A DNA stretch of 64,000 bases, from positions 1,364,001 through 1,428,000 of the forward strand of contig NZ_AP025158.1 in the NCBI RefSeq assembly GCF_019974155.1, read 5' to 3'. The notes under the pieces are model-generated. The model had not been told where the DNA came from and made no database searches. It saw only the letters and a list, made by a program, of their open reading frames with translations. This document shows, one piece after another, positions 16,289 to 20,433 of the stretch. Position 1 is the first letter of the stretch; each line of letters starts with the position of its first letter. A program made the translations under genes and the position numbers. The stretch is from Thermus thermophilus. GTDB taxonomy: Bacteria > Deinococcota > Deinococci > Deinococcales > Thermaceae.

Positions 16289-16864
16289 TCAAACCCCGGC
16301 GAGCTCCAGGAAGTAGCGGTGGAGGCGGGGGTCCTCCGTGAGCTCGGGGTGGAAGCTGCTGGCGAGGATCTTCCCCTGGCGCACCAGGACGGGGAGGTCC
16401 CCAAGCCTGGCCAGGACCTCCACCCCTTCCCCCAGCCTGCGGAAGACGGGGGCGCGGATGAAGACGCCGTGGAAGGGGCCGAGGCCCTCCACCTCCAGGT
16501 CCTCCTCAAAGCTTTCCACCTGCCGCCCGAAGGCGTTCCGCTCCACGGCGGCGTCCAAGACCCCGAGGCGGGGTTGCTCGGGGTAGCCTAGGATCTCCCG
16601 GGCGAGCCAGATGGCCCCGGCGCAGGTGCCAAAAACCGCCAGGCTCCCCTCCGCCACCCGTTGCCGCACGGCCTCCTCGAGGCCATACTCCCGGGCCAGC
16701 TTGCCGATGGTGGTGGACTCGCCCCCAGGCACGATGAGGGCTTTTAGGCCCTCTAAGTGCTCGGGCTTGCGCACCTCCTTGGCCTCCACCCCAAGCCGCC
16801 TGAGGGCCTCCTTGTGCTCGCGGAAATCGCCTTGTAGGGCCAAAACGCCAACCACGCCCCTCAT
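16289..16864 (-). CDS. pdxT: Pyridoxal 5'-phosphate synthase, glutaminase subunit
   Basis: 191 residues. Hydrolyses glutamine and channels ammonia to PdxS for PLP synthesis. Catalytic Cys81 in FGTCAGAIWLA, His172 and Glu174 in SSFHPELTED; PGGEST at 46-51 is the oxyanion region. The start is the ATG at 16864; the frame stays open upstream, but those codons are antisense noise over the nhaA remnant. Unusually, PdxS is 2.6 kb away, separated by a metal-efflux cassette. Confidence 0.95.
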   Translation of the reverse strand: MRGVVGVLALQGDFREHKEALRRLGVEAKEVRKPEHLEGLKALIVPGGESTTIGKLAREYGLEEAVRQRVAEGSLAVFGTCAGAIWLAREILGYPEQPRLGVLDAAVERNAFGRQVESFEEDLEVEGLGPFHGVFIRAPVFRRLGEGVEVLARLGDLPVLVRQGKILASSFHPELTEDPRLHRYFLELAGV

Positions 16865-16871
16865 CCTGGCC

Positions 16872-17042
16872 CTAGGCGGTGGGCCTGTCAAGCGCCGTGC
16901 GCACCAGGAAGAAGCCCAGGGCCCCGGCCACCAAGGAGGCCCCAAGGACCCCCACCTTGGCCTGGTCCAGCATCTCTCCAGAAAAGGCCAAGCCGGCGAT
17001 AAAGAGGGCCATGGTGAAGCCAAAGGCCAGATCGGGCCACCC
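16872..17042 (-). pseudogene. nhaA: C-terminal remnant of Na+/H+ antiporter NhaA
   Basis: One frame between the P-ATPase stop and pdxT reads GWPDLAFGFTMALFIAGLAF, then DQAKVGVLGASLVAGALGFF and a stop (16872-16874). This matches the last two transmembrane helices of NhaA (family pattern GFTMSLFIAxLAF, then DQAKLGILxxSLxxG). The preceding 300 or so residues are missing: the P-ATPase begins immediately before it. No start or ribosome site supports separate expression, so I call it a remnant. Confidence 0.75.
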
Positions 17043-17043
17043 C

Positions 17044-19101
17044 CTACACCCGTGCCCAGAGGAGCCTGAGGCTATTCAGGGTCACCAGGAACAGGGCCCC
17101 GTTGTCGGCCAAGACGGCGGGCCAAAGCCCCGTAAGCCCCAGGAGGGTGCTCAGGAGGAAAACCCCCTTAAGGCCCACCGCCAGGGCGATGTTTTGCCGC
17201 ACCACGGCCAGGGTCATGCGGCTTAAGCGGAAGGCTCGAGGCAGGGCGGCCAGTCCCAACAGGCCCACATCCGCCGCCCGCAAGGCCGCCTCCGTCCCCT
17301 CCACCACCGCCAGGCCCACGGTGGCCCGGGCCAGGGCGGGGGCGTCGTTCACCCCATCCCCCACCATGGCCACCCCGCCTTCCTGGGCCAACGCCTCCAC
17401 CGCCCGAAGCTTGTCCAAGGGGGAAAGCCCTGCCCTAATCTCTTCAGGCTTTAGCCCTAGGGCCTTGCCCAGGGCCAAAGCCGCCTCCTCCCGATCCCCC
17501 GTGAGGAGGTGAAGCCTTAGGCCCAGGGCGCGCAGCGCCCGTAAGGCCGCCTGGGCCTCTTCCTTAGGCGTGTCTTGGAAGGCAAAAACGGCCAAGGCCC
17601 TCGTCCCTTCCACCAGGAGGGAAAGGCTATGGCCTTCTTGGGCCAGCTCCCGCACCACCTCCGCCACCTCCTTGGGGAGGGGCACCGCCTCGGGGCGCAC
17701 GAGCCCCACCTCCCTCCCCTCCACCCAGGCGAAGGCACCCAAGCCGGGCTCCGTCCGGTGTCCTTCGGCCAAGGGTGCCCCCACCTCCGGCGCGGCCTCC
17801 CGCACCGCCCGGGCCAGGGGATGGCTCGACCCCTCGGCCACCGCCTTGGCCAGGGCCAAGGCCTCCTCCTCACCTATCCCAAGGGGCACCACCCGCACCA
17901 GCCGGGGCCGGCCGAGGGTTAGGGTACCCGTCTTGTCCAGGGCCAGGTTCCGCACCCGCCCGAGGGCCTCCAGCGCCGCTCCGCTTTTGAAGAGCACCCC
18001 TGCCCGGGCACCCCGGGCCACCCCGGCGGCGATGGCCGCGGGCACCGACACCACCAGGGCGCAGGGGCAGGCGATGAGGAGGAGGGCCAAGGCCTTGTAG
18101 AGGTGGCCCAGGAAATCCCCCTGAAAAAGGGGAAGCACCAAGGCCACAAAGCCCGCCAAGAGGAGGACGGCGGGGGTGTAGCGGCGGCTGAAGGCGTCCA
18201 CCACCCGCTCCGCCTGGCTTTTTTTAAGCAAGGCCTCCTCCGCCATGCGCTCCATCTCCGCCAGGAAGCCTGCCTTGGGGTGGCGCTCCACCTGGAGCAC
18301 CAGGCTGCCCTCGGCCACCAGGCTGCCCCCCAGGACCCGGTCCCCCGGGCCCTTGGCCTGGGGCAGAGGCTCCCCGGTGAAGGCGCTTTCCTCCACCAAG
18401 GCCTCCCCCTGGAGCACCCGGCCGTCGGCGGGTACCCGCTCCCCGGGGGGTACCCGCACCCGGTCCCCCACCCGAAGGGCCTCGAGGGGCACCTCCTCCA
18501 CCCCCATCGCCCCCAGGCGGTAGACCCGCCGGGGCAAAAGCTCCCCCAGGGCGAAAAGCGCCCCCCGGGCCTGGGCCACAGCGTAGGCCTCCAACACCTC
18601 CCCCACCAGGAACAAGAAGACCACCACCGCCGCCTCCGCCTGGGCGCCGATGGCCAAAGCCCCCAGGGTGGCCACGCTCACCAGGGTCTGGATGCTAAAA
18701 GGGTTCTGCCGGAAAGAGCGGAGGGCCCGCCGGAAGAGCGGGAAGACCCCCACCAAGGCCGCCAGGGTGTAGGCCAAGGCCCCCAGCTGGGGCAGGAGCT
18801 GGGAGAACCCAAAGGCCCCCAGGAGAAGCCCACCGGAGGCCAAAGCCCAGCGCCAGGGCCCAGGTAACCCCCCTTTCTCCTTCCCTTCCGGACGGAGGCG
18901 GTACCCCAGAGCAGAAAGGGCCCGGGCGGCCTCCTCCTCCGCCTGGGGGACCTCCAGTTGGAGGTAGGCCTTGCCGCTTTGGAAGCTCACCTCCGCCTTG
19001 ACCACCCCAGGGACCCGGTTCAGGGCATCTTCCACCTTCCGGGCGCAATCGGCGCAGTCCATGCCCTCCACCCGGAAAACGCGCACCTTAGGAGCCTCCA
19101 T
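17044..19101 (-). CDS. Heavy-metal P1B-type ATPase, Zn/Cd/Pb exporter class
   Basis: 685 residues. N-terminal HMA domain with GMDCADC (13-19), about eight transmembrane helices, TGEP (242-245), CPC in TM6 (345-347), phosphorylated Asp389 in DKTGTLT, His427 of the HP motif in SSHPLA, and GDGVND (581-586). Lys645 in GLKG and Asp666 in LADNG match the Zn/Cd-transport residues of ZntA, so zinc or cadmium efflux is more likely than copper. The ATG at 19101 lies six bases after a TACCCT box. It is probably controlled by the adjacent ArsR protein. Codon choice looks slightly less GCG-rich than the neighbours. Confidence 0.93.
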   Translation of the reverse strand: MEAPKVRVFRVEGMDCADCARKVEDALNRVPGVVKAEVSFQSGKAYLQLEVPQAEEEAARALSALGYRLRPEGKEKGGLPGPWRWALASGGLLLGAFGFSQLLPQLGALAYTLAALVGVFPLFRRALRSFRQNPFSIQTLVSVATLGALAIGAQAEAAVVVFLFLVGEVLEAYAVAQARGALFALGELLPRRVYRLGAMGVEEVPLEALRVGDRVRVPPGERVPADGRVLQGEALVEESAFTGEPLPQAKGPGDRVLGGSLVAEGSLVLQVERHPKAGFLAEMERMAEEALLKKSQAERVVDAFSRRYTPAVLLLAGFVALVLPLFQGDFLGHLYKALALLLIACPCALVVSVPAAIAAGVARGARAGVLFKSGAALEALGRVRNLALDKTGTLTLGRPRLVRVVPLGIGEEEALALAKAVAEGSSHPLARAVREAAPEVGAPLAEGHRTEPGLGAFAWVEGREVGLVRPEAVPLPKEVAEVVRELAQEGHSLSLLVEGTRALAVFAFQDTPKEEAQAALRALRALGLRLHLLTGDREEAALALGKALGLKPEEIRAGLSPLDKLRAVEALAQEGGVAMVGDGVNDAPALARATVGLAVVEGTEAALRAADVGLLGLAALPRAFRLSRMTLAVVRQNIALAVGLKGVFLLSTLLGLTGLWPAVLADNGALFLVTLNSLRLLWARV

Positions 19102-19107
19102 GCCCCT

Positions 19108-19136
19108 AGGGTAGCATCATTTGAGCTAATGGTCAA
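19108..19136 (-). promoter_or_regulatory. Leaderless promoter with ArsR/SmtB-type operator
   Basis: On the minus strand TTGACC (19136-19131), 17 bases, then TACCCT (19113-19108), then six bases to the ATG of the ATPase. The inverted repeat TTGA-N8-TCAA (19121-19136) covers the -35 box and spacer, the usual site for ArsR/SmtB repressors. This is the best-formed promoter in the window. Confidence 0.7.
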
Positions 19137-19504
19137 GTGTTTTCTTCTGCGTGCTCCAAGGCCAGCTCCAACAGGCGGGCCACATGGGCGTCGGCCAGGC
19201 GGTAGTAGACCTGCTTGCCCTCCCGGCGGAAGTCCACGAGCCGCGCCTGGCGGAGAAGCCTGAGCTGGTGGCTCACCGCCGAGACCGAAACCCCGGCGAG
19301 GAGGGCGAGGTCGCAGACGCAAAGCTCCCCCACCGCCTTGAGGGCGAGGAGCAGGCGCATCCTCGTGGGGTCGGAAAGGGCTTTGAGGAGGAGGGCGGCC
19401 TCCTTGACCACCCTCTCCTCGGGCAGGGCGGCCCGGGCCTTCTCCACCCTTTCCGGGTGGACCTCGTAGACCCCGCAGACCGCCCTACCAGCCCCGCTTG
19501 GCAA
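19133..19504 (-). CDS. ArsR/SmtB-family metal-responsive repressor
   Basis: 123 residues with a winged helix: [35 protein letters not shown] and the wing [10 protein letters not shown]. Cys-X-Cys at the start of the recognition region (ELCVCD), an N-terminal Cys10 and His residues in the last helix ([14 protein letters not shown]) allow CadC-like and SmtB-like metal sites. The start is a TTG at 19504 inside the end of pdxS, with GGAGG six bases upstream, so it is coupled to pdxS. It probably represses the P-ATPase by binding the TTGA-N8-TCAA site. Confidence 0.85.
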
Positions 19505-20366
19505 GCCTTTCCTCCTCCTTGAGCTGGTCCAGGTTGATGCCCACCATGGGCTCGCCCAGGTCCTCGCTCACCTCGGCCAGCACCTCGGGGTCGTTGTAGT
19601 GGGCCACGGCCCGCACGATGGCCCGGGCCCGCTTCCTGGGGTCCCCCGACTTGAAGATGCCGCTTCCCACAAAGACGCCGTCCATGCCCAGGTGCATCAT
19701 GAGGGCGGCGTCGGCGGGGGTGGCGATGCCGCCTGCGGCGAAGTTCACCACGGGGAGGCGGCCGTGGTCGTGCACCCACTTGACGAGCTCAAAGGGCGCC
19801 CCGATCTCCTTGGCGTAGGCCATGAGCTCGTCCTCCCGGAGGGACTGGACGTAGCGGATCTCCTTCCACATGGTGCGGGCGTGGCGCACCGCCTCCACCA
19901 CGTTGCCCGTCCCCGCCTCGCCCTTGGTGCGGATCATGGCCGCCCCTTCGGCGATGCGCCTCAGGGCCTCCCCCAGGTTCCTCGCCCCGCAGACGAAGGG
20001 CACCTTGAACTTCCACTTGTCAATGTGGTGCTCCTCGTCGGCGGGGGTCAGCACCTCGGACTCGTCAATGAAGTCCACCCCGATGGCCTCGAGGATCATG
20101 GCCTCCACGAAGTGGCCGATCCTCACCTTGGCCATGACGGGGATGGAGACGGCCGCCATGATCTCCTTGATGATCTTGGGGTCGGACATGCGGGCCACGC
20201 CCCCCTGGGCGCGGATGTCCGCAGGGACCCGCTCCAGGGCCATCACCGCCACCGCCCCCGCCTCCTCGGCGATCACCGCCTGCTCCGGGGTGGTCACGTC
20301 CATGATCACCCCGCCCTTGAACATCTCCGCAAAGCCCGTCTTGATCTGGAAGGTGCCCTTTTCCAT
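19485..20366 (-). CDS. pdxS: Pyridoxal 5'-phosphate synthase, synthase subunit
   Basis: 293 residues, (beta/alpha)8 barrel forming PLP from ribose 5-phosphate, glyceraldehyde 3-phosphate and ammonia. Asp23 in GGVIMDV, Lys80 in MAKVRIGHF (Schiff base), Lys148 in [13 protein letters not shown] use the ATG at 20366 ([12 protein letters not shown]), which matches the usual family start; an ATG at 20378 also follows GGAGG. The gene is followed not by pdxT but by the overlapping ArsR gene. Confidence 0.96.
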
Positions 20367-20433
20367 CCCGCCCTCCATCCTCCAGCTTACGCCTCCCGGG
20401 GTCAAGGGCCCAAAACCCCAGGGGGCCTTGCAC

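Follow-up and report, generated by a model that had tools for sequence, protein, structure and literature searches.

What is the tail of an antiporter gene doing between the gene for a metal ATPase and pdxT, and how did it come to be there? The question is raised by a locus of Thermus thermophilus that lies in a stretch of 64,000 nucleotides of contig NZ_AP025158.1 (positions 1,364,001 to 1,428,000 of the forward strand), here called the window, on which all coordinates below are given unless another locus is named. The locus was compared with its counterparts in a genus set of 27 Thermus genomes that includes the window's own (G000).

The nhaA remnant and its gene neighbourhood

On the minus strand, the frame from 17060 to 16872 encodes a protein of 62 aa that matches the Pfam family Na_H_antiport_1 (PF06965) at profile positions 334-373 of 374 (E 1.8e-9; 37.4 bits with a cut-off of 23.5 bits). 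The initial annotation had seen 55 codons of an nhaA scar at 16872-17042, without giving a strand and directly following the ATPase stop, and had allowed that the segment might match no NhaA at all, which the protein search disproves. Chance similarity is excluded because full-length nhaA is found in 15 of the 27 genomes, in 13 of them directly upstream of pdxT and in the same direction. The NhaA tail is therefore real, although its extent needs correction. The NhaA bases occupy only 16872..17023 of the minus strand and comprise the last 49 codons plus the stop; the plus-strand frame of 16872-17042 is not NhaA. Between them and the ATPase stop (17046-17044) lie 20 bases left over from the old ATPase-nhaA spacer (17024..17043, minus strand), identical to the sequence that follows the ATPase stop in genome G006, and the ATPase and NhaA frames differ.

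In a profile search, the remnant gave the only PF06965 match in the whole genome of the window. It aligns colinearly to the final 40 positions of the profile and to the end of intact nhaA from Thermus, differing by 1 base from the 3' end of the intact gene in G006; however, it is without some 88% of the gene and so, with 49 codons only, passes as a family member but not as a full-length protein with the conserved Asp-Asp pair. The conserved aspartates of NhaA bind the ion. A DDLG motif was present in 13 of the 14 nhaA loci examined (the single miss is the broken nhaA of G001, for which the reading covered the second piece only) and falls within the part deleted from the window. Also gone with the deletion are the gene's own start codon and its expression signal: by eye, a TATAGT, TATAAT or TATGAT box stands right before the nhaA start in 10 of the 14 loci, these being the ten in which our script found an nhaA start, and some of the boxes overlap the ATPase stop. 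Having neither its own promoter-like box nor the conserved aspartates, the remnant is very unlikely to give a working antiporter. Matches to the antiporter family PF00999 occur in 27/27 genomes, with four in that of the window, so that a loss of nhaA through redundancy is possible.

The order of genes on the minus strand of the window is pdxS, smtB, P-type metal ATPase, NhaA tail, pdxT. The pdxS reading frame, the first of the cluster (19485..20405; PF01680 (SOR/SNZ), E 1.9e-111), probably has its real start at an ATG at 20378 or 20366. The repressor gene of the smtB/arsR family (19133..19504; PF01022, E 4.7e-14) has 123 codons from a TTG and begins before pdxS ends, an overlap also reported for TtsmtB (PMC5658604). 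The ATPase gene (17044..19101; PF00122, PF00702, PF00403) is, by gene order and domains, the counterpart of TtArsX/TTC0354, and pdxT (16289..16855; PF01174, E 2.1e-59) encodes the glutaminase subunit of PLP synthase. The arsenic-cadmium genes TtsmtB and TTC0354 (TtArsX) of T. thermophilus HB27 lie beside a PLP synthase gene according to the portions of PMC5658604 and PMC5960188 available, and the same gene pair thus adjoins this gene in the window; the word 'antiporter' is absent from the main texts of both papers, and the portions available do not deal with a promoter of pdxT. In HB27 the TtsmtB start site is inside the upstream PLP synthase gene, where it coincides with the TTG codon of TtsmtB, and the ATPase gene has a promoter of its own (PMC5658604, same portion). 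Separate promoters buried in upstream genes therefore seem usual in the pdxS-smtB-ATPase-pdxT cluster.

PF06965 matches were found in 18/27 Thermus genomes. The match is full length in 15, is split into two pieces in one (G001), and in the remaining two, those of the window and G025, is a stub of equal extent. In G005 a distance of ~13 kb or more separates pdxT from nhaA, the ATPase and smtB, and G016 has a full nhaA convergent behind pdxT. In 21 of the 27 genomes pdxS, smtB and the ATPase are upstream of pdxT. The other six are G005, in which the genes have moved; G012, G013 and G021, with short contig ends (in G012 and G013 the contig stops soon after nhaA, leaving the ATPase out of view); G014, with the ATPase in pieces and no smtB; and G019, with none of these genes within reach. 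These counts, together with the 13 nhaA genes directly before pdxT, point to pdxS-smtB-ATPase-nhaA-pdxT as the common order. In G004, G022 and G026 the ATPase meets pdxT, and no nhaA remnant is seen beyond the promoter-like element described below. This absence may reflect loss, or nhaA may never have been gained, since G049, a genome of another genus whose PdxT is most like that of Thermus (84%), likewise has the ATPase directly before pdxT and no nhaA there.

Several neighbouring loci showed irregularities of their own. The nhaA of G001 (L047:8850-9961) is broken into two frames at a T run one base shorter than in G003, either by a real frameshift or by a sequencing error. G014 (L060:428-1426) has a decayed metal ATPase copy in pieces adjoining pdxS, ~8.6 kb from pdxT and with no smtB match. 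The ATPase of G025 (L071:7727-9816) aligns as two overlapping pieces and may be interrupted or partly duplicated inside. In G003 (L049:3800-4830) a stretch that by eye resembles an insertion element, with GTAGCAACTTGGGT at both ends, lies between ATPase and nhaA and abuts the -10-like box of nhaA; a similar insertion-element-like end is found just before nhaA in G012 (L058), where the contig stops.

The deletion junction

Genome G006 (inferred T. arciformis) has an intact nhaA of 412 codons between pdxT and an ATPase 99.85% identical to that of the window, which bears out the earlier proposal that the lost gene is nhaA and that the rest of it is missing. Alignment with this intact allele, a check the initial annotation had suggested, placed the junction to the base, at 17023..17024 on the minus strand. 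The window equals the G006 allele minus exactly 1,197 bp, of which 110 bp are upstream spacer, carrying a TATGAT box just before the nhaA start, and 1,087 are coding bases out of the 1,239 of nhaA; with the same flanks on both sides, a single deletion explains the window. G025 (inferred Thermus sp. 2.9) shows an identical junction, next to which there is one SNP. The stub is present in these 2/27 genomes only, both representing one shared event, so that at species level it does not appear as a short ORF conserved in many strains, the other outcome that had been considered against a scar. We conclude that the nhaA stub is a later deletion inside an intact ATPase-nhaA-pdxT arrangement.

A deletion driven by microhomology or by a repeat was considered for this junction and rejected, as 0 bases are shared on either side and the breakpoint windows have 12/40 identities, with a mean of 11.5 for random pairs. 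A second kind of nhaA remnant, which we call type B, consists of the head of nhaA fused to its tail at a short repeat, and its core is identical in G010, G016, G017 and G018. At the type B ends, GCCAAGG is found at both places in three of the seven intact alleles examined and has one imperfect copy in the other four. In G016 (L062:11418-12614) the type B remnant stands before pdxT and the full nhaA, in the opposite direction, behind it, as if the gene had been lost and regained.

A conserved element of pdxT at the end of the remnant

The initial annotation missed that a conserved, promoter-like element of pdxT overlaps the last bases of the stub. It can be seen that in all 27 Thermus genomes TTGACA, 17 bases, (C/G)AGGAT, 6 or 7 bases and GTG stand directly before pdxT, with TTGACA and AGGAT invariant. 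In the window the element (TTGACA-N17-CAGGAT-7 nt-GTG) occupies 16863..16891 of the minus strand: the putative -35 (TTGACA, 16891-16886) is inside the last nhaA codons, the putative -10 (CAGGAT, 16868-16863) follows after a 17-bp spacer, and the nhaA stop (16874-16872) sits in that spacer. In an alignment of 75 columns, with one gap placed by hand in G026, 27/27 genomes agree at every position of CTTGACA (seven bases) and of the block AGGATGA, and the commonest base is shared by 11-26 genomes in the 18 columns between these blocks and by 10-24 in the 26 columns upstream. The element is kept whether the upstream neighbour is intact nhaA, a remnant, the ATPase (G004, G022, G026) or another gene (G005, G014, G019, G021); the upstream gene of G014 matches UvdE (E 1.1e-46) and those of G005, G019 and G021 look alike by eye. 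Where nhaA is intact, the -35 codes for a Leu-Asp pair close to the C-terminus; of the 14 copies examined, 13 have LDR there and one LDS. The ATPase frame of G022 reads through TTGACA and has LDRPLP as its last residues, and the ATPase of G049 has its stop codon within TTGACA. Ordinary truncated pseudogenes have a 5' deletion, lack a start and are rare among relatives, and the nhaA stub is like them in each respect; it differs in that a conserved element belonging to the following gene lies in its end.

We consider it quite probable that the stub arose by one deletion, that its tail holds a pdxT promoter which limits upstream change, and that the allele was moved by recombination. On this explanation nhaA once stood between the metal-efflux ATPase and pdxT, and a single deletion, the one seen in the alignment, would have taken its promoter-like box, its start and most of its coding bases. 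The end of the stub would carry the -35 of a leaderless pdxT promoter, whose -10 ends 7 bases before the GTG; because pdxT would need that promoter, upstream deletions and gene exchanges would survive only if they end at or before it. The rest of the stub would be a passive, unselected leftover, since it retains ~130 bases beyond the promoter need and its full length is thus not explained by promoter retention.

A potential explanation that would not need to invoke such a limit is that the stub is a neutral deletion scar, with a breakpoint set by chance and a survival to which the overlap with the pdxT promoter is irrelevant. The absence of microhomology, the chance-level similarity at the breakpoints and the 49 codons, which far exceed the promoter need, agree with this idea; however, no change crosses TTGACA, upstream changes stopping at or before it in every genome seen (27 genomes, five kinds of upstream neighbour), and we regard a purely neutral scar as unlikely. 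The two ideas are compatible, as chance may have set the breakpoint and selection its limit.

The conserved block is a probable leaderless promoter, as judged from its conservation and position. In the phylum Deinococcus-Thermus, -10 motifs 6-7 bp before open reading frames constitute leaderless promoters, the leading T is nearly invariant in Deinococcus -10 motifs, and for pprI a GTG start replaces a misannotated one (all from the available part of PMC12340547). The Thermus pdxT gene resembles these cases in its -10-like hexamer 6-7 nt before the start and in a GTG that would replace a misannotated start, as for pprI. It differs from them in that its box starts with C or G in 27/27 Thermus genomes rather than with the T of TANNNT, and is coupled with a TTGACA -35, which falls within the coding sequence of nhaA where that gene is the upstream neighbour, unlike in the leaderless -10 promoters known from the same part of that paper. 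The gene pdxT is present in 49/50 genomes of the family, 22 of them outside Thermus, and all of these 22 have a NANNNT box 6-7 nt before the pdxT start, so that a hexamer in the leaderless position was found in 27/27 Thermus genomes and 22/22 outgroups. A -35 with at least 5/6 matches accompanied 7/7 of the outgroup boxes that start with C or G and 0/15 of those that start with T, counts that are not phylogenetically independent; such compensation between -35 and -10 is as expected of a real promoter. As background, the outgroup loci contain 599 ATG/GTG/TTG triplets, of which 95 had a -10-like box 5-8 nt before them and 17 also had a 4/6 -35.

We also considered that the TTGACA...AGGAT block is a binding site or a translation signal and not a promoter. 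This would suit the non-consensus -10, and a generic sigma-70 scan of 16600-17400 returned 0 promoters, which counts against a promoter reading at consensus level. The exact 17-bp spacing in 27/27, the 6-7 nt position in 22/22 outgroups and the -35/-10 compensation argue the other way, and make a role other than that of a promoter improbable. A leaderless promoter also bears on the start of pdxT, for which we propose the GTG at 16855-16853 as the probable start instead of the ATG at 16864-16862, since in G026 this ATG, the AT of which belongs to the -10 box, is out of frame.

Within the window the element pattern has one exact match, and allowing up to 1 mismatch gives two sites where 0.22 are expected; the whole genome has two exact matches and 14 sites in all at up to 1 mismatch, as compared with 4 for a reversed control. 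The other exact TTGACA-N18-AGGAT site of the genome is at G000:C1:189682-189710 on the minus strand (L135, TTGACAGGTTCCGCCCCCCCGGGTAGGAT). Before pdxS (window 20366-20405, minus strand) there is a TTGACC-N17-GAGGAT, one mismatch from the pdxT pattern, and TTGACC and TAAGCT are kept there in 21/27 genomes, those with pdxS in reach. A claim that pdxS shares the promoter was dropped, as this region also has a GGAGG ahead of the second ATG and a TAAGCT box at a different spacing, which leave it ambiguous.

It is very doubtful that the stub is instead a functional short gene, encoding a membrane peptide of one or two helices and 46-67 residues that is perhaps a partner of the ATPase. G000 and G025 each have 67 open codons in this frame, which contains an ATG at 17012, but the nhaA start and promoter-like box are deleted and the type B remnant keeps a different, shorter frame. 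Furthermore, three base differences separate G000 from G025 across the old spacer and the stub; they fall in two codons of this frame and replace the residue in each (P by L in the spacer, G by K in the stub), although they are too few for a rate test. Finally, the initial annotation had offered the arrival of a cassette or a later deletion as the origin of the breakpoint, and an insertion of the smtB-ATPase cassette into nhaA, suggested by a breakpoint only 20 bases after the ATPase stop, is refuted by the intact ATPase-nhaA-pdxT order with the same ATPase in G006, by the genes upstream of pdxT in 21/27 genomes and by the ATPase that adjoins pdxT in G049, all of which make the ATPase older than the break.

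Distribution of the deletion alleles and its implications

In a tract of ~2.6 kb that runs from about -2.4 to +0.2 kb relative to pdxT, all 100-bp bins but two (88 and 92) show 97-100% identity between G000 and G025, whereas outside it their identity is 66-98%. Between G000 and G006 identity is 97-100% over this tract, falls to 78-85% immediately downstream and ranges over 62-100% at greater distance; the contrast is weaker than with G025 because identity is again 95-100% from +0.8 kb. A tree of aspS and hisS from 26 genomes (all except G021) places the window's genome with G017 and G010, and G025 with G022. A clade of G000 and G025 is rejected (AU test, p 1.2e-50), as is a clade of the type B set (p-AU 6e-94). 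With G001 and G005 scored as nhaA-present, the presence and absence of nhaA in this slot needs 7 changes on the tree; some of the absences may be cases in which the gene was never gained, since G049 has no nhaA before pdxT either. As neither the stub pair nor the type B set forms a clade, the deletion alleles have probably spread by recombination. Thermus is naturally competent (PMC3235269, from the part available), and transformation is thus a likely route: the near-identical tract would have been moved between species by homologous recombination, probably after natural transformation.

A broader and more tentative idea, which we put forward as possible rather than probable, is that the promoter forms a fixed wall where the upstream gene ends. 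The genes before pdxT (nhaA, ATPase, UvdE-type) would be gained, cut and swapped up to TTGACA, which would dictate their last residues, while nhaA deletion alleles would pass from one Thermus species to another by transformation, perhaps because loss of nhaA helps in low-sodium springs.

Deletion remnants and promoters inside the previous gene are kinds of feature already known. As far as a limited search of literature listings shows, the base-exact case, the horizontal spread and the promoter boundary are new: among the matches listed, none named a Thermus nhaA by title in a search on Thermus nhaA or antiporters, none dealt with this locus by title or abstract start in one on Thermus pdxT, pdxS and promoters, and none was usable in one on spreading deletions or in one on promoters inside upstream genes. 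What had been a stray gene tail can now be described as a defined event, for which the breakpoint is placed to the base and an intact reference allele exists, and the probable start codon of pdxT in Thermus is corrected. The locus provides two cases in which the loss of a gene, rather than a gain, appears to have moved between species. It also suggests a rule for compact genomes with leaderless genes, in which the promoter of a neighbour, placed in the coding end of a dead gene, may cap how far that gene is erased.
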